Shown here one piece after another: positions 41,442 to 60,044 of a stretch of DNA of 63,584 nt (position 1 is its first letter; each line of letters starts with the position of its first letter). The DNA is taken from contig NZ_LT608315.1 of the NCBI RefSeq assembly GCF_900095825.1, positions 1,978,452-2,042,035 of the forward strand. The letters are read 5' to 3'. A program made the position numbers and the translations under genes. This stretch comes from Acidaminococcus massiliensis (GTDB taxonomy: Bacteria; Bacillota; Negativicutes; Acidaminococcales; Acidaminococcaceae). A model generated the notes under the pieces. That model searched no databases. It was not told where the DNA came from and saw only the letters and a program-made list of their open reading frames with translations.

Positions 41442-42284
41442 TTAGTCGCATATACTCCTATACAAGCTTTTAACTGTTTCCATCACTTCTTCCCATGGTA
41501 AACATCCTATATAGGAATTTTTCTCAAGATATAGTTCCCACTGTTCCTTCATATCTTTATTTGCGCTGATTCTTTTCAGAATCTCTTCTCCCTTATCTTT
41601 GTCCACAAGGGACTTTCGTTTCATAGCCGTTGCCTGATAGGCTTCCTCTAATATTTTCTTATGAATTTGATTCCCATAGGTCGTTGATAGTTGGCAGATA
41701 TCATAAAAATCTCTCATTCGAGTATTCGCAATGTCTCTGGCAAGAATCGTTTCCAACTTTTCTGCTAATACGCTTTCCAGATTGTAACTCATGATATTGA
41801 TGTTTCTTTTTTCAAACATCAACGGATATTGATAAGAAACAGCAGCCGGAGTTATGATGTCTCCCGTTGAGATATCGATTTTTACTGACTGTCGGAGCTT
41901 ATCCATATAGGCATTCAACATAAAACGCAACCCAGGATATTCGTGTTCTTCCATAATCTCTCTGGCACTTTGCAAAGAAAATTCAACTTGATCCGGCAAC
42001 CTTATTCCGGCGATTTCTTCTATCATTTCTTTGGCCTTTTGTAGTGTCAGAGGATAATTTCTAATAGTAGCATCAATGTCCATTGTCGCTCGCATATTTA
42101 GCCCAATCATAGAAGCAACTAACATTCCACCTTTTAAGATAAATTTATCTTGATAAGGTGAAACAGAACATCTTTCTAAAAACCGTTCCATCATATAGTT
42201 GCGAATCAGTGTTTGTGCCTTCCAACTATCTCCCTTGGACAAGTTTCTAATTTTATCTTTTAGTTGACCAGAAGATTGGATCAT
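41442..42284 (-). CDS. AbiEii/AbiGii-type nucleotidyltransferase toxin
   Basis: A 280-residue protein. FILKGGMLVASMIGLNMRATMDIDATIRN holds the G-G and D-x-D nucleotidyltransferase motifs near residues 48-75; VKIDISTGD follows, with SYNLESVLAEKLETILARDIANTRMRDFYDI, the Lys-rich AbiEii signature. Type IV AbiE toxins modify tRNA ends and cause abortive phage infection (established knowledge). Its start overlaps the antitoxin stop (ATGA), as in known abiE operons. Confidence 0.9.
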   Translation of the reverse strand: MIQSSGQLKDKIRNLSKGDSWKAQTLIRNYMMERFLERCSVSPYQDKFILKGGMLVASMIGLNMRATMDIDATIRNYPLTLQKAKEMIEEIAGIRLPDQVEFSLQSAREIMEEHEYPGLRFMLNAYMDKLRQSVKIDISTGDIITPAAVSYQYPLMFEKRNINIMSYNLESVLAEKLETILARDIANTRMRDFYDICQLSTTYGNQIHKKILEEAYQATAMKRKSLVDKDKGEEILKRISANKDMKEQWELYLEKNSYIGCLPWEEVMETVKSLYRSICD

Positions 42285-42874
42285 AGCAAAACCTCCGTAT
42301 AATGCCGGATTTTCTGTTCCATATTTAGTTTCGATGCATACTTCATCAATTGATGAATGTTTTTTGAAGGACTATGAAAATATTCTTTCAACGCTGTTTG
42401 GAAGTCTTGGATATCAAAGTCATTTTTATGCTGGATCAGATCACAGATGGAACGATCCATATCATAAACATTCACGTAATGACAAAAAGGCGTTTCCATA
42501 GAAATCATACCCAAAGATAGCAGTTGGGGATCCGTATAGTAGGTTTTAATCTTTTTTTTATGTAAAGATAAAGTATTATATCCTTTTTTAACGGTAACGG
42601 TAATTATGCTGGGTTCCCGGTCTAAAAGCCCATGAAAATAAAGTGCAGTAGCCCCAGAAAAGACAGTTTCCTGATATTGACTCTGCAATACAAACCAGAT
42701 ATCATCCCAAGCCTCTTCTGTCTTATAGATGCCGGAAGCAATCTTCTGCATAGATTTTTTTTTAATGAATGATGCGATAGTTGGCCGAGAAATACCCAGT
42801 GAAACTGCTTCCCGCACAAGCAGATACCCACTGGTTTCTTCTGTTAATTGATAAAGGATATTTTGCTTGTCCAC
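42281..42874 (-). CDS. AbiEi-type antitoxin/transcriptional repressor
   Basis: A 197-residue protein with an N-terminal winged-helix domain (LLVREAVSLGISRPTIASFIKKKSMQKIASGIYK), then TVFSGATALYFHGLLDREPSIITVTVKKGYN and ETPFCHYVNVYDMDRSICDLI, the AbiEi_4 pattern. It represses the operon and counteracts the toxin. The pair is complete and its frames are intact. It is located between the HAD gene and the DUF4422 glycosyltransferase. Confidence 0.88.
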   Translation of the reverse strand: MDKQNILYQLTEETSGYLLVREAVSLGISRPTIASFIKKKSMQKIASGIYKTEEAWDDIWFVLQSQYQETVFSGATALYFHGLLDREPSIITVTVKKGYNTLSLHKKKIKTYYTDPQLLSLGMISMETPFCHYVNVYDMDRSICDLIQHKNDFDIQDFQTALKEYFHSPSKNIHQLMKYASKLNMEQKIRHYTEVLL

Positions 42875-48104: not shown

Positions 48105-51100
48105 GCTGACGCCGATGCCCCCATGCGGGGGCGACACCAAGCAGGCCGTCCAGGCCCAGATGGGCCTGATATTTCAATCCACGTCCCCATGTGGGGGCGA
48201 CCAAATCGGCGTTGTACGGTTGTCCAGGGTGGCAATATTTCAATCCACGCCCCCTCACGGGGGCGACAGTCAACCCCAGCAGGTGGTGTATCGCCCCCTA
48301 TTATTTCAATCCACGCCCCCATGCGGGGGCGACCCCATGCTGGGATATGCAGCAGCGGGCGCGCCCCTGATTTCAATCCACGCCCCCATACGGGGGCGAC
48401 CCCGGATGGTCGGACGGCTATCGCCGTGAGGATGATTTCAATCCACGCCCCCTCACGGGGGCGACCAGTGGCATTTTTTGACCGGCAGCAAGTGGCCATC
48501 ATTTCAATCCACGCCCCCTCACGGGGGCGACGTGCGGACATGAGCAAAGGATTTGTAATCAGGATATTTCAATCCACGCCCCTTCACGGGGGCGACTCGG
48601 CAGTATAAGGCACCTCGTCTCTGATCCGGAATTTCAATCCACGCCCCCATGCGGGGGCGACGGTCATGCAATCCATCTTCTTAACCGGAATACCGGAATT
48701 TCAATCCACGCCCCCATGCGGGGGCGACGATTTTTTACGCTGCTGAATTTCATGAGGACATGATTTCAATCCACGCCCCCATGCGGGGGCGACTGCGATG
48801 TGGCGGGTTTTTGCCATATTTGCAATATTTCAATCCACGCCCCCATGCGGGGGCGACGGTGAGGAAGCCCTGGACACCTGGCTAGGGATTACAATTTCAA
48901 TCCACGCCCCCATGCGGGGGCGACTGCCGTTTGGGGCTGGTGGAAAAATGGTTTGGCTTATTTCAATCCACGCCCCCATGCGGGGGCGACGGCGGTCTTT
49001 TTGGCTCTGCCGGATCTACGGCAGCAATTTCAATCCACGCCCCCATGCGGGGGCGACCTGTGCTCTTTGATGGCTGCAACGTCTTTTGCCGATTTCAATC
49101 CACGCCCCCATGCGGGGGCGACGCGGTCTTTTTGGCTCTGCCGGATCTACGGCAGCAATTTCAATCCACGCCCCCATGCGGGGGCGACGCGGTCTTTTTG
49201 GCTCTGCCGGATCTACGGCAGCAATTTCAATCCACGCCCCCATGCGGGGGCGACAAGTCGTGTCTACGGCTCCCCACTCCCGGGCTGTAATTTCAATCCA
49301 CGCCCCCATGCGGGGGCGACGTGGCCTCCGGGATCTACAGCCCCAACGAGGCCAATTTCAATCCACGCCCCCATGCGGGGGCGACCATCGGCAAAATGCC
49401 CATCTACCTCATGGACCAATTTCAATCCACGCCCCCATGCGGGGGCGACGGCAGGACCGCTGATGTCCGGAGATTTGTAGTTATTTCAATCCACGCCCCC
49501 ATGCGGGGGCGACCTATCCACGGTGTTCAGCTTCTTGCGAGGGGCAATTTCAATCCACGCCCCCATGCGGGGGCGACGTCACTGCCTGTATTGTCGCAAT
49601 AGTAGATTCTCATTTCAATCCACGCCCCCATGCGGGGGCGACGATTGCTAGTACGCAAATGATAATTGTTATCAACAATTTCAATCCACGCCCCCTCGCG
49701 GGGGCGACCAGGTTCCCATGATTTGATTATTTTCGTTCCGGATTTCAATCCACGCCCCCTCGCGGGGGCGACGGACCTCCCCCGCCGGGTCCCGGCCCTG
49801 GTCCACATTTCAATCCACGCCCCCTCGCGGGGGCGACCTCGGCCCATCTGAGCAGCTTTCGCCAGTCATATTTCAATCCACGCCCCCTCGCGGGGGCGAC
49901 TTGCCGTGCAGTAGATCTTCCCCTCACGGTAGCCTATTTCAATCCACGCCCCCTCGCGGGGGCGACCAGATTGTTTTAACACGGGCAGGCCCAAACAGCG
50001 ATTTCAATCCACGCCCCCTCGCGGGGGCGACTTGCTTATGAGCAGATTCCATCTTGTCCAAAGGATTTCAATCCACGCCCCCTCGCGGGGGCGACCTGAC
50101 TGGTATTTTAGGATGTTGGACGAGCTACATTTCAATCCACGCCCCCTCGCGGGGGCGACCAGGAGAGCGCTCCCCATGGTCACAGCCAAGGAAATTTCAA
50201 TCCACGCCCCCTCGCGGGGGCGACGTTGGAGTAACATTGTGTTGCTGCTACCAGGCAGATTTCAATCCACGCCCCCTCGCGGGGGCGACCCCCTCCGCTC
50301 CGGAAGGCGCTCCCATCAAGAGTATTTCAATCCACGCCCCCTCGCGGGGGCGACCGAATCTGGCTTTGACTGGCCGGACAACATCCGATTTCAATCCACG
50401 CCCCCTCGCGGGGGCGACAATCTCCGAAGTAACCACCGGGGCATAAGGAGTAATTTCAATCCACGCCCCCTCGCGGGGGCGACCCAAGGTGTGCTCAATG
50501 CGACTACAAAACCGGCAATTTCAATCCACGCCCCCTCGCGGGGGCGACTTTGCCAGCGGCGGCCTGGTGAGCGGCTCCGGCGATTTCAATCCACGCCCCC
50601 TCGCGGGGGCGACTTTTTATTTACCTCTTTTCTTTTTTTGTAACTGATTTCAATCCACGCCCCCTCGCGGGGGCGACTCCCTCAATAAATTTTTCCGTGT
50701 CAGCATATCCAATTTCAATCCACGCCCCCTCGCGGGGGCGACTATTGACGTTTTGGACGTATACAGTTACATTGAATTTCAATCCACGCCCCCTCGCGGG
50801 GGCGACCGTACGAATCATTGTCATACAGTTCTTCATAATACATTTCAATCCACGCCCCCTCGCGGGGGCGACCCTTCATCATCTTCCGGATCCCGATGCT
50901 CCTCGGCATTTCAATCCACGCCCCCTCGCGGGGGCGACCTTCCTTTTGGGACCTATAGAGTATTCGCCGGAAATTTCAATCCACGCCCCCTCGCGGGGGC
51001 GACTTCAGGGGGAGGCGAGTATTACAGTGGATGTAGGCATTTCAATCCACGCCCCCTCGCGGGGGCGACCTAGGATTTAAGACTTCGGCTCCTTATTGTA

Positions 51101-52373
51101 AAATTATTTCAATCCACGCCCCCTCGCGGGGGCGACCAATCTCATTCTGTGCATATTCAATGACCTGCATAATTTCAATCCACGCCCCCTCGCGGGGGCG
51201 ACCGGGATTCCTGGCTACCAGCACCAACACGGGGGCGATTTCAATCCACGCCCCCTCGCGGGGGCGACCCGCCTCGGCCAGTAGTGACGCGTGGGTGTGC
51301 CGATTTCAATCCACGCCCCCTCGCGGGGGCGACCGTCAGTCCCAAATTACAGAGCTGATGGTGTAAATTTCAATCCACGCCCCCTCGCGGGGGCGACTGC
51401 ACTTGACAAAATGCTAAGTATAGTATATGATATTTCAATCCACGCCCCCTCGCGGGGGCGACGGTTAAGACTCCAACTGCAATCAATACTTTTATATTTC
51501 AATCCACGCCCCCTCGCGGGGGCGACATTGATCTTGCGCTTTTTGCTTACGAACAAATTCATTTCAATCCACGCCCCCTCGCGGGGGCGACTATTGCGCT
51601 TCCAGGTATGATTCAGTGTTTCGCTATTTCAATCCACGCCCCCTCGCGGGGGCGACCTACCGCATAGGGCGTCAGGATCAAGAAAACTATATTTCAATCC
51701 ACGCCCCCTCGCGGGGGCGACTGAAGAATGGATGGCAAGATGTAAGGCAGAGGGATTTCAATCCACGCCCCCTCGCGGGGGCGACTATCACTTGCTGTGC
51801 TTTTTCCAGGTTAAGTTCTCATTTCAATCCACGCCCCCTCGCGGGGGCGACCTGCAGCATCTTATTGGTCACGATATTATCATCATTTCAATCCACGCCC
51901 CCTCGCGGGGGCGACCTTGGCATCCTGGAGGTTGGTAGAGTCCGGAGTATTTCAATCCACGCCCCCTCGCGGGGGCGACGGGCATGGTTTCCAGCTGGCG
52001 GAACACCCGGGGTAATTTCAATCCACGCCCCCTCGCGGGGGCGACAATACAAAAACAATATTAAGCAAAAACAAACCAAAATTTCAATCCACGCCCCCTC
52101 GCGGGGGCGACGGATTGAAATGTGGACCAGGGCCGGGACCCGGCGATTTCAATCCACGCCCCCTCGCGGGGGCGACGGATCCGGTTGTCGCTTTTGTCAT
52201 CGGGCAGGGAATTTCAATCCACGCCCCCTCGCGGGGGCGACCAGTACGGCACGGCCCTTGAAACCGACCGGGCTAATTTCAATCCACGCCCCCTCGCGGG
52301 GGCGACTTATCTTTTTCAGGAAGAGATCCAAGATCATCGGGTATTTCAATCCACGCCCCCTCGCGGGGGCGAC
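48105..52373 (-). CRISPR. Type I-C CRISPR array, about 65 spacers
   Basis: 31-base repeats (minus strand GTCGCCCCC, four variable bases, GGGGGCGTGGATTGAAAT) alternate with 32-36-base spacers. The leader and the cas genes are on the right, so new spacers enter at the right end. The left-most repeat (48105-48135) is degenerate in its ATTTCAATCC half, as expected for the trailer. The variable tetraloop is ATGC in most left-hand repeats (with TCAC, ATAC and ATGT variants) and TCGC (plus strand) in all repeats from 49678 to the leader. One spacer occurs three times (48991, 49123 and 49189 regions) and one (52112-52145) copies another part of the array. Confidence 0.98.
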
Positions 52374-52495
52374 TGTCAGACGAGGCAGTCAGATTCCATC
52401 TGACGTTCCCGTCTTTTTTTCGCGAAGGTCAGTTTTCAGATTTCCTAAGCCCCGTTATCCGGTGCTTTTTCTTTCTGTTTGCTTCCCCTTCGCGC
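52374..52495 (-). promoter_or_regulatory. CRISPR leader
   Basis: A 122-base AT-richer gap between the cas2 stop and the first repeat, transcribed leftwards into the array. A GTCAGA...TCTGAC hairpin (52388-52404) lies close to the first repeat, where leader motifs for spacer integration are expected; an A-run (minus strand) near 52416-52422 is also present. Confidence 0.75.
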
Positions 52496-52786
52496 TTACA
52501 GCACCATGGGGGCTTCAGGGTCGTAAGTCCTTTTGGCTCCCAGGTGCTGGATTTTGTTCTGATAGGTGTTGCCCAGGTTGTAGAACCGCAGGCTGTCGTG
52601 GTCTTTGTCGATGAGGGCTTCCAGTTCTCCTTTCAACAGGACGAACTGGGCCTGGTCCAACAGGCATTCGAATACGGAATTCTGCACCCGCTGTCCGTGG
52701 GCCACACAGCATTTGGCCACTTTCCGCAGCCGGGCTCTCCCGGCCGGGGTTTCGGTGTTTACATCGTAGGTTACCAAGATCAACAT
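52496..52786 (-). CDS. cas2: CRISPR-associated endoribonuclease-like Cas2
   Basis: A 96-residue Cas2: MLILVTYDVNTETPAGRARLRKVAKCC, VQNSVFECLLDQAQFVLLKGEL and YNLGN, the ferredoxin-fold pattern with the N-terminal Asp. It forms the Cas1-Cas2 integrase. It follows cas1 by four bases and is the last gene before the leader. The longer open frame (to 52819) has no conserved N-terminal residues. Confidence 0.95.
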   Translation of the reverse strand: MLILVTYDVNTETPAGRARLRKVAKCCVAHGQRVQNSVFECLLDQAQFVLLKGELEALIDKDHDSLRFYNLGNTYQNKIQHLGAKRTYDPEAPMVL

Positions 52787-52790
52787 TGCT

Positions 52791-53822
52791 TCACTTCCCC
52801 AAAAATGCCGGATACCCATCCAGATCCTCTCTCAGCCATTTGGCCAGGAGCAGGGCCTGGACGTAGGGGAAAAGTCCCCAGGGTATCTTTTCTTTCAAAA
52901 AGGGATGTTCCAGTTTTTCCTGCTTCCGTTCCTGCCACCGGGTGAGGAAGATCTTCCTTCCCTCTTCGTTCATCAGAACGGCACCGGTTTCCGTCTTTTT
53001 GAAGTGTTTCCCAGTAAGGCTCCGGGTGTTGACCAGGGAAAGGACGAACCGATCGGCAGCCAGAGAACGGAACTCTTCCATCAGGTCCAGGGCCAGGGAT
53101 TTTCTCCCGGGCCGGTCCCGGTGGAGGAATCCCACGCTGGCATCCAGTCCCACTGCTTCCAGGGCATGGGCGCAGTCAGCAGCCAGCAGGGTGTAGGCAA
53201 AGGACAGCAGCGCGTTCATGGGGTCCAGGGGCGGCCTCTTGTTCCGTTCCCGGAAGAAAAAGGTCTTTTTATCCCCCAGGATCAGCTGGTCGAACAGGGA
53301 GAAATACACATGGGCGGCATTCCCTTCTATCCCCCGCAGCTGGTCTCCGTCCCTGGCCTGCTGCAGATCACGGAGTGCCCCTTTCAAAGTCTGGATGGCT
53401 TCCCTGAACTGTTCCTCCTTCACCGACAGAGGATGGTCCCGGAGGAACCGCATCAAGGTGACCCGTGCATTCCAGATTTTCCCTGTCAGGAACCACCGGC
53501 CAAGCTGGAGACTTTCCTCCTCCCTGTCGCTTTTCCGATACTGGGCCTTCCGCAGCAGCACATTTCCCAGCCCGGTTCCGCTGATCCGGGCCAGGAATTT
53601 TCCCTGGGGTGTCAGAAAAGTAAAGCCGATGTTCTGTTCCGCACAGGCCCCCAGAAGAGCCGGTGACGCCCCTTTGTATCCGAAATAAAAGATGCTCTCC
53701 AGGTTCAACAGGGGAATCCTCTGGACCACATTTCCATCCTTCCATGCCGTCAGATTCTGGTTCTCCAGGGACAGATAGAGGTCTTCCGACAGGATGAACA
53801 GGGTATTCAGCAGTCGTCTCAT
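52791..53822 (-). CDS. cas1: CRISPR-associated integrase Cas1 (type I-C)
   Basis: A 343-residue Cas1: MRRLLNTLFILSEDLYLSLENQ at the start, catalytic Glu166 (GIEGNAAHVYF), His234 (GFLHRDRPGR) and Asp246 (ALDLMEEFR). All metal ligands are present, so spacer acquisition should be active, in line with the long array. ATG 53822 overlaps the cas4 stop (ATGA) and has GGAGGAGG upstream. Confidence 0.96.
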   Translation of the reverse strand: MRRLLNTLFILSEDLYLSLENQNLTAWKDGNVVQRIPLLNLESIFYFGYKGASPALLGACAEQNIGFTFLTPQGKFLARISGTGLGNVLLRKAQYRKSDREEESLQLGRWFLTGKIWNARVTLMRFLRDHPLSVKEEQFREAIQTLKGALRDLQQARDGDQLRGIEGNAAHVYFSLFDQLILGDKKTFFFRERNKRPPLDPMNALLSFAYTLLAADCAHALEAVGLDASVGFLHRDRPGRKSLALDLMEEFRSLAADRFVLSLVNTRSLTGKHFKKTETGAVLMNEEGRKIFLTRWQERKQEKLEHPFLKEKIPWGLFPYVQALLLAKWLREDLDGYPAFLGK

Positions 53823-54493
53823 AGCCCCTCCTCCTGGAACCGTCCGGCATAATAATCGGCCACCAGCCCATCCTTCTGCAGTTTGGGCAGACACAGGTCC
53901 TTCAAAGAACAGCTGGTGCAGGTCTGGCTGGGCTTCACCCGGGGAATGTAGCGCCGCTCATAATACTGGTGCATCTCGGCAAACATATCCCGGACCCGCT
54001 GCCGCAGTTCTTCCGTCATGGGGATTTCCCGCCGGTGCCGCAGAGCATGGTAGTACAGACAGCCCCGGGGGATGGCACAGCCCAGCATTTCTTCCAGACA
54101 GATCACCTGGGCAGCCAGCTGGAGGATGTCACAGTCATCGGATTTATCCTTTCCCCGCTTGTACTCCACCGGCAGCACCTTCCACAACCCCCGGTGCCCT
54201 GCCAGATGAGCCCCTTCTTCTCCGGCATCTGCCTGGGTGAATTCCACCACATCGCAGATTCCCGAAGCCCCCAGGGTGGGAGAACTGATCCGCAGACCCC
54301 GCACCGTCATCACCCCGGCCCGTTTTTCCACGAACCGATCGTTGTGGGCATTCTGGTGGATCAGCTGCCCCTCTGCCGTCAGGCGGTTCTCCTCCCACTG
54401 CTGGTCAATGTGGATCAGGGCCCACTGGCGCCGGCAAAAGACGAAATGCTGGATTCCTGAGATCATCAGGTAATCCTCTTCCCGCCAGGTCAT
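53819..54493 (-). CDS. cas4: CRISPR-associated Cas4 nuclease
   Basis: A 224-residue RecB-like nuclease with an iron-sulfur cluster: Cys20 and the C-terminal triad Cys192, Cys195, Cys201; nuclease residues Asp81 (GICDVVEF), Glu110 and Lys112 (VEYKRGK). In type I-C, Cas4 joins Cas1-Cas2 to trim prespacers and choose the PAM end. The gene overlaps cas7 by four bases. All key residues are intact, which matters for the array-derived spacer. Confidence 0.95.
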   Translation of the reverse strand: MTWREEDYLMISGIQHFVFCRRQWALIHIDQQWEENRLTAEGQLIHQNAHNDRFVEKRAGVMTVRGLRISSPTLGASGICDVVEFTQADAGEEGAHLAGHRGLWKVLPVEYKRGKDKSDDCDILQLAAQVICLEEMLGCAIPRGCLYYHALRHRREIPMTEELRQRVRDMFAEMHQYYERRYIPRVKPSQTCTSCSLKDLCLPKLQKDGLVADYYAGRFQEEGL

Positions 54494-55386
54494 ACCATTC
54501 TCTGGCAGGTGACCCCTTCCGGCAGGTTTTCCGTATCCACAGTCACCTGGTAATCATGGTAGGACCGAGGCGCCTTCCGGGGATCCTTTTTCTCCACCTG
54601 CACCCGTTCAAACAGTTTGTAGGACGGCGCATTGCCCAGTTCTGATTCATGTTTGAACACAATCAGTTCCCGCACAGCCATATTCCCCCGGGCGGCAGAA
54701 TGGTCATTTTCGAACATGTTGATGATGGCCTTCCACAACAGCTGCAGGTCTTCGTCGGAAAAGCCCGTGGATTTCCGAGCCAGGTTGGCGGACACATACC
54801 CTTCCACCCGGTACAGACCGTAGGGAACGATGTACTTCCGGCCCATTTCCGTGTTCCGGCCTTCTTCCTGCCGTTTGGCAGTGGTAATGGCCACCCGAGT
54901 GATGGTGATTTCCTGAGGCATAATGGGGTCGATGCTGTGGGCGAATCCCAATTGGACCGGTCCCCGGACCTGTCCGCAGCTGAGAGCCCCTTTCACGAAG
55001 GTGGTCATCACAGCCCCGAAAGTACGGATATCATAGAAATTGCTGCACATAAAGTCCCGGATCTTCCGGTCCGCATCGGGATCTTTCTTTTTGTCGATTT
55101 TCTTCACATCATCCACACCCAGATACTCCAGCGCCTTCTTGTCGTTGGCTTCCAGGGGGACCGTTTCCCGGACATAGATCTGATACCCGGGCTGGTCTTC
55201 CTTGGCAGCTTCCACATAATTGCGGATCTTCCGTTTCAGGCACACATCCGTCACCAGGCCCAGGCCGGTTTCCGGGTCCACCCGGGGCATGTTCCCTGCA
55301 TCTGGATCCCCGTTGGGGTTGCCGTTTTCCACATCAAAAAGCACCACGAAATCGTACCGGTTGCGAATTGCCTTGTTTTCTTCCAT
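54490..55386 (-). CDS. cas7c: Type I-C Cascade backbone Cas7 (Csd2)
   Basis: A 298-residue Cas7: RYDFVVLFDVENGNPNGDPDAGNMPRVDPETGLGLVTDVCLKRKIRNYV is the family start; TFVKGALSCGQVRGPVQLGFAHSIDPIMPQEITITRVAITT follows. Multiple copies bind the crRNA spacer. It starts inside the cas8c stop (TAATG) and ends overlapping cas4. Confidence 0.95.
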   Translation of the reverse strand: MEENKAIRNRYDFVVLFDVENGNPNGDPDAGNMPRVDPETGLGLVTDVCLKRKIRNYVEAAKEDQPGYQIYVRETVPLEANDKKALEYLGVDDVKKIDKKKDPDADRKIRDFMCSNFYDIRTFGAVMTTFVKGALSCGQVRGPVQLGFAHSIDPIMPQEITITRVAITTAKRQEEGRNTEMGRKYIVPYGLYRVEGYVSANLARKSTGFSDEDLQLLWKAIINMFENDHSAARGNMAVRELIVFKHESELGNAPSYKLFERVQVEKKDPRKAPRSYHDYQVTVDTENLPEGVTCQRMV

Positions 55387-57167
55387 TATGCCTGTTCCTC
55401 CTTCTTGGTATAGCGAGCCTGGGTTTCCTGATAATAGCCCAGGATGAACATTCCCTGTTCGTCCAAAGTCAGCCGGCCGGGAATGGGGTTCCCTTCATCG
55501 GGCATGGTAATCTTTTCCATCAGGCTGCCCAGCTTCTTCTGGGTATTCACCGCCAGTCCCTTGTTGGTCCGGCCCAATTTATTCAGATGGGCATTGGCCA
55601 GTTTCAGCAGCACCGGGAATACCGCCCCCGGCGTGGCGCAAGCCGCATTGAAATACCGGTCTTTGATGGTTGCACTGACTTCGCTGGAATCTTGCTGCAG
55701 TCCCTCCAGCACCGCAAACAGCCGGCCCAGCACATAAGGAACTGCCTTGCAGTTTTCATTGACGTTCATGGTAATTTCTCCACCCCACTTTTCCTGATGA
55801 TTCTTCAACAGATAGGCCTTCACAAAGGCCGCTCTGGGATAACTGATTTTTGCATCCCCGGATTCTGCCTTGATCCGCAGCAGGAACTGCCGATACATGG
55901 CTTCCGGATAAGGGGCATCCTGGAGGATGCTCCGGAGCAGGCTCCCGGCCAAAAGGGGCAGTGCCTGCTTTTTGGTGGCATTGGGATTCACCGATTCCTT
56001 CAAGAGACGCCATAAAGGCAGATAATCACCTCGTTCTTTTTCCCAGGAGGGACGGACAATCTCCAACCGTTTCTGGTGATTCTGCAGATGCTGCAAGGTG
56101 ACCCCGAAGGTATTCTGCCAGAAGAAACGGACGGACAGCCGGGCCGCATTGGGTGCCAGCCCCAGCACATAGAACGGTTCATCCGGTGAAAGGGTGATGC
56201 CATCCACATCAGCAGCCACGCCCTGGAGGATTTTTTCCAGCACGGCTTTTACGGTTTGTTCTCTGTTTTCCCCGGTTCCTGACGGGTTTAGGAAGTTCAT
56301 GTACACCTGCTGATACAGCGGTTCGGCCGATTGGGCCCAGAACACCACCGTGGTATCTCCGCAGAAAATGCTGTTTCCGTCCCGGAGCAGCTGATTCAGG
56401 GCCGTGGTATAAGCAAAGGCCGCATATTCACTGACTGGGGCATTCAGCCCCTGTTCTCCGTCATGACCAAAGGATTCTACGGATTTGGCATTAAAAGAGA
56501 CTAGTGCTGCTCCCATAGACTGGGCATCCCGTACTCCTTTGATGTTGGGATGGGTCAGGGCGATTTCCGCCACCTTTCCAGTCACCAGGCACTGGCCTTT
56601 TTCGCTGTTCTCTCCCCCGCCTTCTTTCTTGTAATCCATCCAGCGCCGACGGATTTCCGGATCCTGCTGGGCTTCCTGGCCGTTGACGGCAAACACCAGT
56701 CCCGAAGCCCCCACAATCGCATCCCGGTTCTGCTGGAATACCGGATTTTCCTCCGCCTTATCCGGCTGCCAGCTGTCAAAGAACTTCAGGACTCCCTGAG
56801 CAACCGGAGAATCACACCCATCCAGCAGCTGGTGGTGAAAAGTCCGGGCCGCCTCAAAACACTGGATGGACCGTTTGGGTTTCCCTTTACTGTCCACACC
56901 GAAAAAATAGGATGAGCCGTCATAGAGAAAATTGGGCCGCACTCCGCTGGACCGTTTGAACACTTCCGGCACCTGGAGCAGGGGATCCGTCAGGACGGTT
57001 TTCTTCCCCCGCTGGACTTCATTCCGCAGGGACAGGATGCCCAACAGCTTCCCTTCCTCGTCCAGCTGGATTTCCGCCGATACCTTGGCCGCGCTCCAGC
57101 CTGGTTCCTCCACCTTTCCCTGTTTCAGCAGGGTTTCATAATACTTCACCAGTGCCTGCAGGATCAT
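55386..57167 (-). CDS. cas8c: Type I-C Cascade large subunit Cas8c (Csd1)
   Basis: A 593-residue Cas8c: MILQALVKYYETLLKQGKVEEPGWS at the start, VRPNFLYDGSSYFFGVD, CLVTGKVAEIALTHPNIKGV, SFNAKSVESFGHDGEQGLNAPVSEYAAFAYTTALN and FYVLGLAPNAARLSVRFFW. It reads the PAM and starts R-loop formation; in I-C the gene also yields an internal Cas11-like small subunit (family knowledge), which is plausible here from internal Met codons in the last third. Full length. Confidence 0.95.
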   Translation of the reverse strand: MILQALVKYYETLLKQGKVEEPGWSAAKVSAEIQLDEEGKLLGILSLRNEVQRGKKTVLTDPLLQVPEVFKRSSGVRPNFLYDGSSYFFGVDSKGKPKRSIQCFEAARTFHHQLLDGCDSPVAQGVLKFFDSWQPDKAEENPVFQQNRDAIVGASGLVFAVNGQEAQQDPEIRRRWMDYKKEGGGENSEKGQCLVTGKVAEIALTHPNIKGVRDAQSMGAALVSFNAKSVESFGHDGEQGLNAPVSEYAAFAYTTALNQLLRDGNSIFCGDTTVVFWAQSAEPLYQQVYMNFLNPSGTGENREQTVKAVLEKILQGVAADVDGITLSPDEPFYVLGLAPNAARLSVRFFWQNTFGVTLQHLQNHQKRLEIVRPSWEKERGDYLPLWRLLKESVNPNATKKQALPLLAGSLLRSILQDAPYPEAMYRQFLLRIKAESGDAKISYPRAAFVKAYLLKNHQEKWGGEITMNVNENCKAVPYVLGRLFAVLEGLQQDSSEVSATIKDRYFNAACATPGAVFPVLLKLANAHLNKLGRTNKGLAVNTQKKLGSLMEKITMPDEGNPIPGRLTLDEQGMFILGYYQETQARYTKKEEQA

Positions 57168-57817
57168 TGGTGCACCTCGCAGTTCCGGAGATCAAGGACT
57201 CCATTGACCAGTTTCGCCCGGAAAAACCGGGGCATGATGTTTTGCAGATTCCGATAATCCATGTCGTAGAGCATCAGTCCCAGATCCTGGGTAAGGGGAT
57301 AGGGCTGGATTTCCTCGTCATCCTCCACCAACCGGAAAGAAGCCGGAAATTCCCGGGTTCCGAAATAAGGCTGATGGTAGCACTGCCCCTTCCGGGCCCG
57401 GCGGGTGAGCATTTCCCGGAATTTCCCCGGATTATCCGAAGAATTGGCCTTTTCTGTCATTTCAAAATGAAGGGTGATGCAGTAATGGACATTTTTCAGC
57501 ACCGTGGAAGCCCGCTGCATAATATCCTCATGGGTTGCCTGGGCCAGCAGCTTGCCACCCCGGGCACCGGCCAGGACCGTAGTCCCGGAAATTTTGCTTT
57601 TCAGTTCATTCCGCCGGATATTGGTGAACTGGATGGGGCTCAGCACATCGATTTCATCGATCACATACCGCAGCCCCGGATGCCAGAATATGGCCTCCAC
57701 CAGTCCCCGGGCCGCGGAAGGCGTCATCACATCGTAGCTCATCCGCTCCCCCTTCAGTTCCGGCCGGGTAAAGCAGGCATACTTCCCCCAGCAGTCGATT
57801 CGTACTCCATAACTCAT
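57164..57817 (-). CDS. cas5c: Type I-C crRNA endonuclease Cas5 (Cas5d)
   Basis: A 217-residue RAMP protein: MSYGVRIDCWGKYACFTRPELKGERMSYDVMTPSAARGLVEAIFWHPG is the Cas5d start; ending NLQNIMPRFFRAKLVNGVLDL. In I-C there is no Cas6, so this protein cuts the pre-crRNA at the repeat hairpin. The ATG at 57817 has AGAGGTGG upstream. Its stop overlaps the cas8c start (ATGA). Confidence 0.95.
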   Translation of the reverse strand: MSYGVRIDCWGKYACFTRPELKGERMSYDVMTPSAARGLVEAIFWHPGLRYVIDEIDVLSPIQFTNIRRNELKSKISGTTVLAGARGGKLLAQATHEDIMQRASTVLKNVHYCITLHFEMTEKANSSDNPGKFREMLTRRARKGQCYHQPYFGTREFPASFRLVEDDEEIQPYPLTQDLGLMLYDMDYRNLQNIMPRFFRAKLVNGVLDLRNCEVHQ

Positions 57818-57848
57818 GGAACCACCTCTGTTTCTCGTTGATATCGCT

Positions 57849-60044
57849 TCAGGCAAACAGCCCCCGTCCTTCTTCCTGTTGATAAGTAAGGCCGGTTTCT
57901 TCCTTATATACGGACAGATCTTTCAGCACTGCCATCTGTTCGTCCAGAGCCTCCGTCACCCCGTCCGCCAGCATCTGTTCATACAGCCCTGGCCGGGGGC
58001 CGGTCTGGGACCATACGCTGACCATATAACGGCCGGCTTTCCGCAGCAGCTTCCGGGTCCGGATGCCGCACTGGAGCTGGCGGACAATCTCCTGGGCTTC
58101 CTCATTCCAGGGGATCAGCACATTCCTGGTATGGTCTTCGATCAGTTGGAACTGTTGACCGATGGTGGCATAGGCTCCCTTGCCAGATAAATCGACAATT
58201 CCTTTTTCATCCAGTATACCGTTTTTTGCCCGATAAAGCCAGTCAAAGTAATTGGCAATGGCTTCCGGCGCTGCCAGGTCCTGGAACTTCTGTGCCACCA
58301 GCTGGGTGCTCTGCCGTTCCTGTTCCAGGAAGCGGGACTTCTGGCTGTTTTCCGTGGCGAAGACATAGACCAGGCTGTCCTCCGCTTTGCGCTTCCCTTC
58401 CCGGTTGCACCGGCCGGCCCCCTGGATCAGGGCATCCACCCCGTTTTCTTCCACATACACCACCGGGAAATCGATATCCACCCCTACAGAAATGATGCTG
58501 GTAGAGACCACCCGGCAGGGTTCTCCTTTTTTCAGCTTCTCCTTCATGGTGCGGATCACCTGCTGCCGATGGGCCGGGCAAAGATTGGTGGAAAGATAAA
58601 GGTGCTCTCCCTGGATCCGGCTGCTGATTTCCCGGGCCTCCCCTTTGGTCAGGCAGATGCACAGGCTCTGGGGCTGCCCTTCCATGGCTTCTGCCACCTG
58701 GTCATAGGACAGCACCCCCTCATTGACCAGCCGGGTCCGTTTGAAGAAGCGGTAAAGGCCGGGGATATCTTCCATCAATTCCTGGGGCTTTTCCTGGAGG
58801 AACCGTTCCAGCCGGGGCTGGGTGGCACTGCACAAAAGAGCCGAAGAGGAAAAATGCCGGACCAGGGCCTCCAGGCTCCGGAGCACCGGAGTCATATAGT
58901 TCACCGGGAACATCTGGGCCTCGTCAAACAGCAGCACACTGTTGGCCATGTTGTGGAGCTTCCGGCACCGGGAAGACCGGTTGGCAAAAAGGGATTCGAA
59001 GAACTGGACATTGGTGGTGACGATCACCGGTGCGTCCCAGTTTTCCGTGGCCAGCCGACGGGTGTCCATCTTTTCGTCCGTGTCCTCATATTCCACCTGG
59101 CTGTGGTGTTCAATGACATTTTCCTCTCCCAGGTAGGACCGGAGGATGTCCGCCGTCTGTTCGATAATGGAAGTATAGGGAATCACATAAATGATGTGTT
59201 TTTTTCCGCAGGTCCTGGCCTTTTCCAGCGCCCAGGCAAAGGCGGAAATGGTCTTGCCTCCGCCGGTGGGAACGGTCAGGGTATAGATCCGGTCTTCCTG
59301 ATTCTTCCCCATCTGGATGCAACGCTGGAGGATCTCATATCGCTTCCGGTTCAGATCATTTTGCGGATGGAAGAACCCCTTTTCCTGCAAGGCAGAAAAG
59401 AACCGGTCATGGAGCTGTTCCAGGGAGGCAAAACCGCTCCGTTTCACCGCTCCCTCCTGCATATAGTCTTCCGTATCCAGAAAATCCCCATCCACCAGAC
59501 AGGAATACAGCATCCGCAGCCAAAGACTGCACCCAATGAAATCCATCTTCCCCTGGATCTGGAAATCCTGGATGACTTGTTCGATTCCCTGGACTTGAAC
59601 CGGCACTTTCAATTCCTGCCGCCAGGAAGAGCAATCCGGAACCGCTTTTTTCAGCCGGGCTGCAAAAGTGTTTTCTCCAGGCAAATCAGCATTTGTTCCC
59701 AAATCCGGCAACCCCGCATGGTGCCCGGCGATACAGAAAGCTTCCATAGTAGAAGTGAGATTTCCATTTTTTGCCAAAAGCTGGGCCCCCGCCGTAGAAT
59801 GATCCACCCGGCCATGTTTCTGCCCCAAAAGATACTTCTGGAAATCCCCAGAGTACTTCCCAATATCGTGGAGCAGCCCGCACTGCCGGGCCGCCTCCTT
59901 CATTTCCGGAGTGGGAGCAAACTTCTCCGCCAGCCGGGCCACCTGCCGGAGATGGTCCAGCAGGAGCTGAGGCGGCCGTTTCCCCGCTGGATCCAGATGG
60001 GCCAAATATGGTTTTCCATTCACCATCACTTGTTGCAACTTCAT
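57849..60044 (-). CDS. cas3: CRISPR helicase-nuclease Cas3
   Basis: A 731-residue Cas3 with an N-terminal HD nuclease (LLHDIGKYSGDF with His59-Asp60, DHSTAGAQLL with His82, AGHHAG at 107-111) and an SF2 helicase: Walker A PTGGGKT (259-265), DEAQ (374-377) and later SVGVDIDFPVVYVEENGVDALIQGAGRCNREG with motif VI. It degrades DNA after Cascade binding. It is the first gene of the cas operon. Confidence 0.95.
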   Translation of the reverse strand: MKLQQVMVNGKPYLAHLDPAGKRPPQLLLDHLRQVARLAEKFAPTPEMKEAARQCGLLHDIGKYSGDFQKYLLGQKHGRVDHSTAGAQLLAKNGNLTSTMEAFCIAGHHAGLPDLGTNADLPGENTFAARLKKAVPDCSSWRQELKVPVQVQGIEQVIQDFQIQGKMDFIGCSLWLRMLYSCLVDGDFLDTEDYMQEGAVKRSGFASLEQLHDRFFSALQEKGFFHPQNDLNRKRYEILQRCIQMGKNQEDRIYTLTVPTGGGKTISAFAWALEKARTCGKKHIIYVIPYTSIIEQTADILRSYLGEENVIEHHSQVEYEDTDEKMDTRRLATENWDAPVIVTTNVQFFESLFANRSSRCRKLHNMANSVLLFDEAQMFPVNYMTPVLRSLEALVRHFSSSALLCSATQPRLERFLQEKPQELMEDIPGLYRFFKRTRLVNEGVLSYDQVAEAMEGQPQSLCICLTKGEAREISSRIQGEHLYLSTNLCPAHRQQVIRTMKEKLKKGEPCRVVSTSIISVGVDIDFPVVYVEENGVDALIQGAGRCNREGKRKAEDSLVYVFATENSQKSRFLEQERQSTQLVAQKFQDLAAPEAIANYFDWLYRAKNGILDEKGIVDLSGKGAYATIGQQFQLIEDHTRNVLIPWNEEAQEIVRQLQCGIRTRKLLRKAGRYMVSVWSQTGPRPGLYEQMLADGVTEALDEQMAVLKDLSVYKEETGLTYQQEEGRGLFA

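Follow-up and report, generated by a model that had tools for sequence, protein, structure and literature searches.

The fourth spacer from the leader of a type I-C CRISPR array in Acidaminococcus massiliensis is an inverted piece of the array itself, and its capture belongs to a recent, PAM-less run of self-derived spacers. That the adaptation machinery took this spacer from array DNA is well supported, and we consider it quite likely that spacer 4 as a whole represents a genuine Cas1-Cas2 integration of array DNA within such a run. Read in order, the spacers of this single array, whose cas genes are open, pass from phage DNA flanked by a PAM to self DNA that lacks one. Positions given without a contig name are those of the window, the whole stretch of 63,584 nucleotides that was analysed.

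Organization of the type I-C locus

The array is adjoined by a cas3-cas5c-cas8c-cas7c-cas4-cas1-cas2 operon on the minus strand, which places the system in type I-C. The components of the locus are as follows:

48171-52373, minus strand: type I-C CRISPR array, 65 repeats of 31 nt and 64 spacers
52374-52495, minus strand: leader interval, from cas2 to the first repeat
52496-52819, minus strand: cas2 (TIGR01573)
52791-53894, minus strand: cas1, type I-C (TIGR03640)
53819-54493, minus strand: cas4
54490-55386, minus strand: cas7c (TIGR02589)
55386-57167, minus strand: cas8c (TIGR01863)
57164-57856, minus strand: cas5c (TIGR01876)
57849-60044, minus strand: cas3 (TIGR01587 and TIGR01596)

All seven cas genes are open and each scores above a family cut-off, with interference genes that look intact. 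The cas4 protein is 91% identical to the Cas4 of genome G007 and is free of obvious damage, and a PF01930 search of the own genome returns the cas4 of this locus as the sole gene found. The 64 spacers parsed from the array measure 32-36 nt. The high-coordinate side was set as the leader side, as cas2 adjoins the array there and variant repeats lie at the opposite end; a consensus scan of the leader interval found neither a sigma-70-type promoter nor a terminator.

The older part of the array carries one 35-nt spacer sequence in three copies, at 48992, 49123 and 49189 (spacers 49, 50 and 52 from the leader), and within positions 48991-49223 a different spacer separates the copies at 48992 and 49123. 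This triplication is a rearrangement and shows that the array also rearranges. Within positions 49612-49742 the repeat loop switches a single time, from CATGC on the older side to CTCGC on the newer side, and the CTCGC form is identical in all 42 newer repeats. Elsewhere in the window, positions 41442-42874 hold an adjacent gene pair, which we take to resemble an AbiEii-like toxin with an AbiEi-like antitoxin.

Spacer 4 is an inverted copy of a spacer-repeat junction

The array-derived spacer and its source comprise four elements:

52112-52145, minus strand (the crRNA sense): spacer 4 from the leader, array-derived, inverted
49783-49816, plus strand: protospacer within the array, joining 24 nt of spacer 40 to 10 nt of repeat; CCC as 5' flank when read in the crRNA sense
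49773-49806, minus strand: spacer 40, older, donor of the 24 nt
49807-49837, minus strand: repeat, donor of the 10 nt

The initial annotation had described spacer 4 as the exact reverse complement of 49783-49816, covering 24 nt of an older spacer and 10 nt of repeat, and the alignment confirms this at 34 of 34 positions, forming a 34-nt inverted repeat of 100% complementarity. Homology between spacer 4 and its source ends at both spacer borders: the adjoining bases differ at either end, so the match spans precisely one spacer unit. In addition, the repeats flanking spacer 4 are intact on both sides, and the normal length and leader-proximal place that had been noted for it hold (34 nt among spacers of 32-36 nt, fourth from the leader). 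Length, intact repeats and homology ending at the borders together mark spacer 4 as a Cas1-Cas2 product, while the exact match across a spacer-repeat junction marks its origin as array DNA. A given 34-mer is expected to find 1.8e-14 chance matches in 2.67 Mb, and in the own genome, which comprises 2.67 Mb in 4 contigs, searches place the source of spacer 4 solely in this array. The observation is not chance, and the interpretation as array capture holds.

An inverted copy could also have been produced without Cas1-Cas2, by recombination or template switching within the array, where the two copies lie 2.3 kb apart and the triplicated spacer documents rearrangement; homology that stops at both borders between intact adjoining repeats, together with four neighbouring spacers self-derived from elsewhere, nevertheless renders this origin hardly credible. 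Supply of spacer 4 by a foreign array or mobile element with the same junction is improbable as well. Uptake of conspecific DNA would be compatible with the sequence, but the external phage or plasmid that the initial annotation had named as the competing source did not appear: the 24-nt part of spacer 40 has no exact match in viral contigs, and the junction is not covered at high identity in 7 phage records or in 21 plasmid records (for 6 of these, among the matches listed). Moreover, an array with the old spacer is absent from 99 other genomes at E 1e-10, a threshold that could drop a lone protospacer and at which 4 of the 99 gave repeat-driven matches, and in 8 other genomes of the genus searched at E 0.001 matches to the old spacer are absent beyond array-to-array alignments.

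The spacer at 51203-51237, whose end resembles the repeat end, was considered as a second capture within the array and rejected, as a TTC-flanked site in a phage stretch matches it at all but 1 position.

The PAM of the array measured from phage matches

TTC is the usual I-C PAM in the accounts consulted (PMC8482600, PMC6546366), and excerpts of PMC8482600 describe other I-C PAMs in some genera, including CCN in Porphyromonas; because the I-C PAM varies by genus in this way, measuring it here mattered. Five stretches were selected for their matches to the array: L058-L060 from genome G004, L061 from genome G008 and L052 from the own genome. Each of the 64 spacers was aligned to them with a tolerance of 7 mismatches. 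All five carry phage genes, which PHROGs identifies as tail and tape-measure proteins in L058, primase/helicase and integrase in L059, major head, portal and terminase in L060, terminase, helicases and dUTPase in L061, and an integrase and a Sak4-like protein in L052. The comparison yields 24 spacer matches, whose 5' flanks are TTC (15), CTC (5), TTT (2), TGC (1) and ATT (1), while 20 sets of shuffled spacers give 0 matches to the same five stretches. Spacers 17, 18, 37 and 62 have targets in L052, the prophage stretch of the own genome, from which they differ at 4 to 7 positions. In addition, an IMG/VR contig with terminase and portal genes matches spacers 7, 19 and 22, each with a TTC flank. 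With the triplicated spacer counted once, 21 distinct older spacers, spacer 7 included, match phage DNA, and their flanks are TTC or CTC for 17, TTT for 2 and neither for the remaining 2. A TTC-type PAM lies 5' of the protospacer, as is characteristic of type I-C.

Many spacers of the G007 and G008 arrays have matches in two intervals of the own genome on contig C4, 2421000-2456000 and 806000-820000; both intervals look like prophages, since L052, which is part of the former, has an integrase.

A self-derived run occupies the newest end of the array

The newest spacers surrounding spacer 4, and the phage-derived spacer that precedes them, are arranged as follows:

52307-52342, minus strand: spacer 1 (newest), exact self match at C4:1706232-1706267 in an ispH-rpsA fusion gene, flank AAC
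52242-52275, minus strand: spacer 2, exact self match at C4:1338835-1338868 in a fabK-like gene, flank AGA
52177-52210, minus strand: spacer 3, exact self match at C3:2046-2079 in a phoH-like gene, flank GAA
52046-52080, minus strand: spacer 5
51980-52014, minus strand: spacer 6, exact self match at C4:1723840-1723874 at the 3' end of an acyl-CoA ligase gene, flank AAG
51916-51948, minus strand: spacer 7, exact match to the IMG/VR contig, flank TTC, preceding the self run

The whole array was searched against the own genome, with all 21 candidates scored and matches aligned in the crRNA sense; the filters of this search may hide very simple spacers, and spacer 5 alone was rechecked by exact pattern. 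Outside the array, spacers 1, 2, 3 and 6 find exact matches over 36, 34, 34 and 35 bases, respectively, and with spacer 4 the self-derived spacers, defined by an exact match elsewhere in the own genome, make up five of the six newest, all of normal length (34-36 nt). In the whole-array search the remaining 58 spacers have no exact self match, the pair of spacer 40 and spacer 4 aside, and by chance all five self spacers would occupy places among the six newest of 64 with a probability of 7.9e-7. Spacer 5 has no second copy in the own genome by exact pattern and no exact match in viral contigs. Because spacer 7 is phage-derived with TTC and stands directly before the run, the change to self spacers is sharp; scans of viral contigs with spacers 8, 9 and 10 found nothing, and no viral-contig source was found for spacers 2 and 3.

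The target of spacer 1 scores above its family cut-off as an ispH-rpsA fusion, and the targets of spacers 2, 3 and 6 are recognised below curated cut-offs as fabK-like, phoH2-like and acyl-CoA ligase genes. Other species of the genus carry sequences related to these targets (80-96% identity), which is what chromosomal genes would show. The acyl-CoA ligase gene, near tyrS (L051 7700-9285), has an in-frame stop before its last part, and its start also looks split; the match of spacer 6 lies in that last part, 3' of the stop. At the spacer 1 protospacer (spacer 1 within positions 52305-52350), the PAM-side flank ATCGAAAC is close to the repeat's own end ATTGAAAT. The protospacers of spacers 1 and 6, looked at for primed adaptation, are 17.6 kb apart and both without a PAM.

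None of the five self protospacers has a functional PAM, their flanks being AAC, AGA, GAA, CCC and AAG for spacers 1, 2, 3, 4 and 6. TTC or CTC flanks 17 of the 21 phage-matching spacers versus 0 of the 5 self spacers (p 0.0019), a comparison in which the self spacers are few and 2 of the 21 phage-matching spacers are likewise without TTC, CTC or TTT. The CCC flank of spacer 4, which the initial annotation had set apart from TTC by reference to the usual I-C PAM, is thereby borne out against the PAM measured in this array. The reverse orientation, which would put the PAM at the opposite end, was rejected, as GAA stands directly 3' of 0 of the 5 self protospacers; the 3' flank of the spacer 4 protospacer is ACG, and at the spacer 3 protospacer a GAA lies one base further along on the 3' side.

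The self origin of spacers 1, 2, 3 and 6 had not been included when spacer 4 was first described, and it alters how that spacer is to be read: because its neighbours are also self-derived and without a PAM, the array capture is one event in a recent, PAM-less self-sampling run, and spacer 4 is not a special array-targeting device. Of the original proposal that Cas1, Cas2 and Cas4 captured array DNA, the part concerning the adaptation machinery stands, on the length, intact repeats, borders and leader-proximal place of spacer 4. The part concerning Cas4 is not supported, since PAM-less self spacers, here five without a TTC-like PAM, are the opposite of what Cas4-guided processing produces (PMC6519985); selection after acquisition could, however, give the same picture.

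Uptake and persistence of PAM-less self spacers

In the explanation that we favour, Cas1-Cas2 would integrate a fragment of the cell's own array, or of a clone-mate's, cut at a spacer-repeat junction, and this fragment would go in inverted at the leader end. Spacers 1, 2, 3, 4 and 6 would constitute a recent run in which the own chromosome was taken up without a PAM. Naive adaptation would have sampled this self DNA, perhaps where the chromosome breaks close to the terminus and to the array, and the resulting spacers would have been kept because, for want of a PAM, no interference results from them. Within this explanation, the exact matches, the spacer order, the flanks and the contrast with the older, mostly TTC-flanked phage spacers are direct observations.

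Two versions of this explanation account differently for the missing PAM. According to the first, which we put forward tentatively, Cas4-guided uptake of self DNA is constant, self spacers flanked by TTC are lethal to the cell, and those that persist are rare, mis-trimmed ones; the recency of the run would then mean merely that no phage spacer has swept lately, for example in culture. Interference genes that look intact and five self flanks that are all non-TTC agree with this version, and excerpts of PMC10011333 and PMC6990116 present self spacers with an altered PAM as a recognised route of survival. It nevertheless demands that five separate rare events fix consecutively, with at most one other spacer between them, and the sister array of G008 has one exact self match in 150 spacers. 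According to the second version, possible but on the whole doubtful, the adaptation module, most simply through Cas4 or its supply, stopped choosing TTC ends, so that any DNA was taken, mostly self. The absence of TTC and CTC from all five self flanks against their presence at 17 of 21 older spacers is what this version would produce, and deletion of cas4 is reported in the portions of PMC6519985 consulted to yield spacers from regions without a correct PAM, but the cas4 gene here is open and free of obvious damage and the self spacers are of normal length. Because cas4 is open and 91% identical to its counterpart, a second Cas4 was not found and the lengths are normal, we lean slightly towards survival over loss of PAM selection.

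A phage-encoded Cas4 or similar factor may instead have driven the uptake of host DNA, as has been proposed for Campylobacter. There is a reported precedent in excerpts of PMC6990116, and spacer 7, which precedes the run, records a phage; the PF01930 search, in contrast, finds the cas4 of the locus alone in the genome. A transient phage would be compatible with that result, and we regard this route as having little probability.

Chromosomal source of the self DNA

As far as sequence can distinguish them, the self matches would fit this chromosome and that of a sibling equally. Position C4:1945816 carries what we take to be a dif-like site, the sole match, with 3 mismatches to the consensus. 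It lies about opposite two adjacent DnaA-family genes at 586-589 kb. The array source is ~82 kb from the dif-like site, the sources of spacers 6 and 1 are ~222 and 240 kb from it and that of spacer 2 is 607 kb away, the source of spacer 3 being on an unplaced contig. Self sources tend only weakly towards the terminus (p 0.023; with the array left out, p 0.085). Were sampling uniform, the array would be represented in 0.8% of self-spacer sets of five, a post hoc figure given that the finding was picked for spacer 4; uniform sampling therefore fits poorly unless the array is a hotspot. This result hints at the array as a prespacer hotspot, and the CRISPR locus is described as a hotspot for self spacers in E. 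coli in the available portions of PMC12539621 and PMC10011333.

Predicted folding and activity of crRNA 4

The crRNAs were modelled with an assumed 11-nt handle and 20-nt tail. The inverted repeat piece of spacer 4, AUUUCAAUCC, can pair with GGAUUGAAAU of its own handle, and crRNA 4 ranks first of 64 both in predicted handle pairing (0.94) and in predicted fold energy (-35.3 kcal/mol). By this fold prediction, the crRNA of spacer 4 would be close to dead, its inverted repeat piece occupying its own 5' handle. The initial annotation had suggested that this crRNA is antisense to array transcripts. With the spacer 40 region of the pre-crRNA, the model gives a duplex of -127.5 kcal/mol, the next being -83.0, so such pairing is possible; the predicted self-fold onto the handle could compete with it, and antisense control would be no more than a possibility. 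A regulatory role, in which crRNA 4 would have been kept since its binding to the pre-crRNA tunes the array, could draw on the same strong duplex; with a handle predicted to be hidden, and with spacer 4 being one of a set of self spacers that share no target, we judge it very improbable.

CCC is absent from the flanks of the 27 phage matches, so interference at the spacer 4 target appears unlikely on the flank sequence, in keeping with the earlier suggestion that a non-TTC flank may spare the array. Spacer 4 is probably silent, its target lacking a PAM and its crRNA being predicted to fold on its own handle. The model further predicts that repeat-derived inverted spacers are disarmed by folding: any inverted spacer that keeps the handle-side end of the repeat must self-pair, which is a general and testable prediction. 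A more sweeping reading, in which adaptation was recently uncoupled from the PAM and records terminus-side chromosome and its own array, while captured inverted repeats are disarmed by handle pairing, seems to us unlikely in this full form. If true, the array would have turned naturally from remembering phages (spacer 7 and older) to remembering self (spacers 6 to 1), with array capture made harmless by the repeat's own make-up.

Control arrays and rarity of array capture

The G008 array has 151 repeats, and its 150 spacers include one exact self match (12 of 12 candidates scored) besides inexact self matches of 94% and 83%. The matching spacer is a 36-nt sequence (L055:4738-14800, query 2176-2211) found exactly in all four genomes searched, and from its sequence it may be another self-type spacer, from a highly conserved site. 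Beside this array, at L055 4111-4458, the ORF list contains a 115-aa piece named by eye as cas7-like, in view of which the G008 cas operon may be truncated or moved. The G007 array (61 repeats) serves as a partial control, with no spacer self match among the 40 of 97 candidates scored; its search returned matches to a second small repeat locus and to a repetitive element at the far end of the array. Run-like self capture is absent from these one complete and one partial control arrays.

The rarity of array capture was surveyed in one genome per species by scanning for spacers that contain at least 9 nt of the inverted start of a repeat, a lower bound because one repeat motif and one repeat end were used; records closely related to this genome may also be left out. 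The scan of genome contigs yielded 14 loci, 12 of which were set aside as chance: 11 have 9-12 nt, and L015 has 16 nt, of which 6 fall within a spacer. At L010 (5806-5884) in an Ignavibacteriae MAG, 20 nt of inverted repeat lie within a spacer that is likely array-derived, its source spacer being absent from the 6.1-kb contig, and array derivation is possible for a spacer with 16 nt of repeat at L013. The source spacer is visible at 1 of the 14 loci, which is the window's own case. In a phylum sample, arrays of the scanned kind occur in 66 of 398 genomes, and the pattern of capture in direct orientation occurs in 0 of the 398. Furthermore, 32 array stretches not chosen by the pattern, with 673 spacers, contain no junction or repeat match of at least 14 nt. 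The literature searched, which covers the subject in part, returned no account of a natural spacer originating at a junction of its own array.

Comparison with known systems

An array that shows when and how its adaptation system began taking self DNA is useful, as it opens two questions to testing: by what means self spacers survive, and whether prespacers come preferentially from the array outside induced E. coli. In the available accounts of naive adaptation by the E. coli type I-E system (PMC12539621, PMC10011333), oriC, the terminus and the CRISPR locus are hotspots, and here the CRISPR locus and the terminus region are likewise sources. Those accounts concern laboratory profiles, whereas the present case is a natural type I-C array; moreover, the E. 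coli hotspot described in excerpts of PMC10011333 lies upstream of the array, whereas here the source is inside it. Cas4-independent uptake, as cited in the consulted part of PMC6519985, likewise gives spacers from sites without a correct PAM, but unlike that situation cas4 is present and open here. Phage-Cas4 uptake in Campylobacter, in the portion of PMC6990116 consulted, similarly draws new spacers from the host chromosome, whereas here a second Cas4 was not found in the genome. A further resemblance is to the self-targeting spacers with missing or altered PAM described in the same excerpts of PMC6990116, which likewise match the chromosome exactly, lack a PAM and are tolerated with open cas genes; in the present array, by comparison, such spacers make up five of the six newest, and one of them comes from the array's own spacer-repeat junction.
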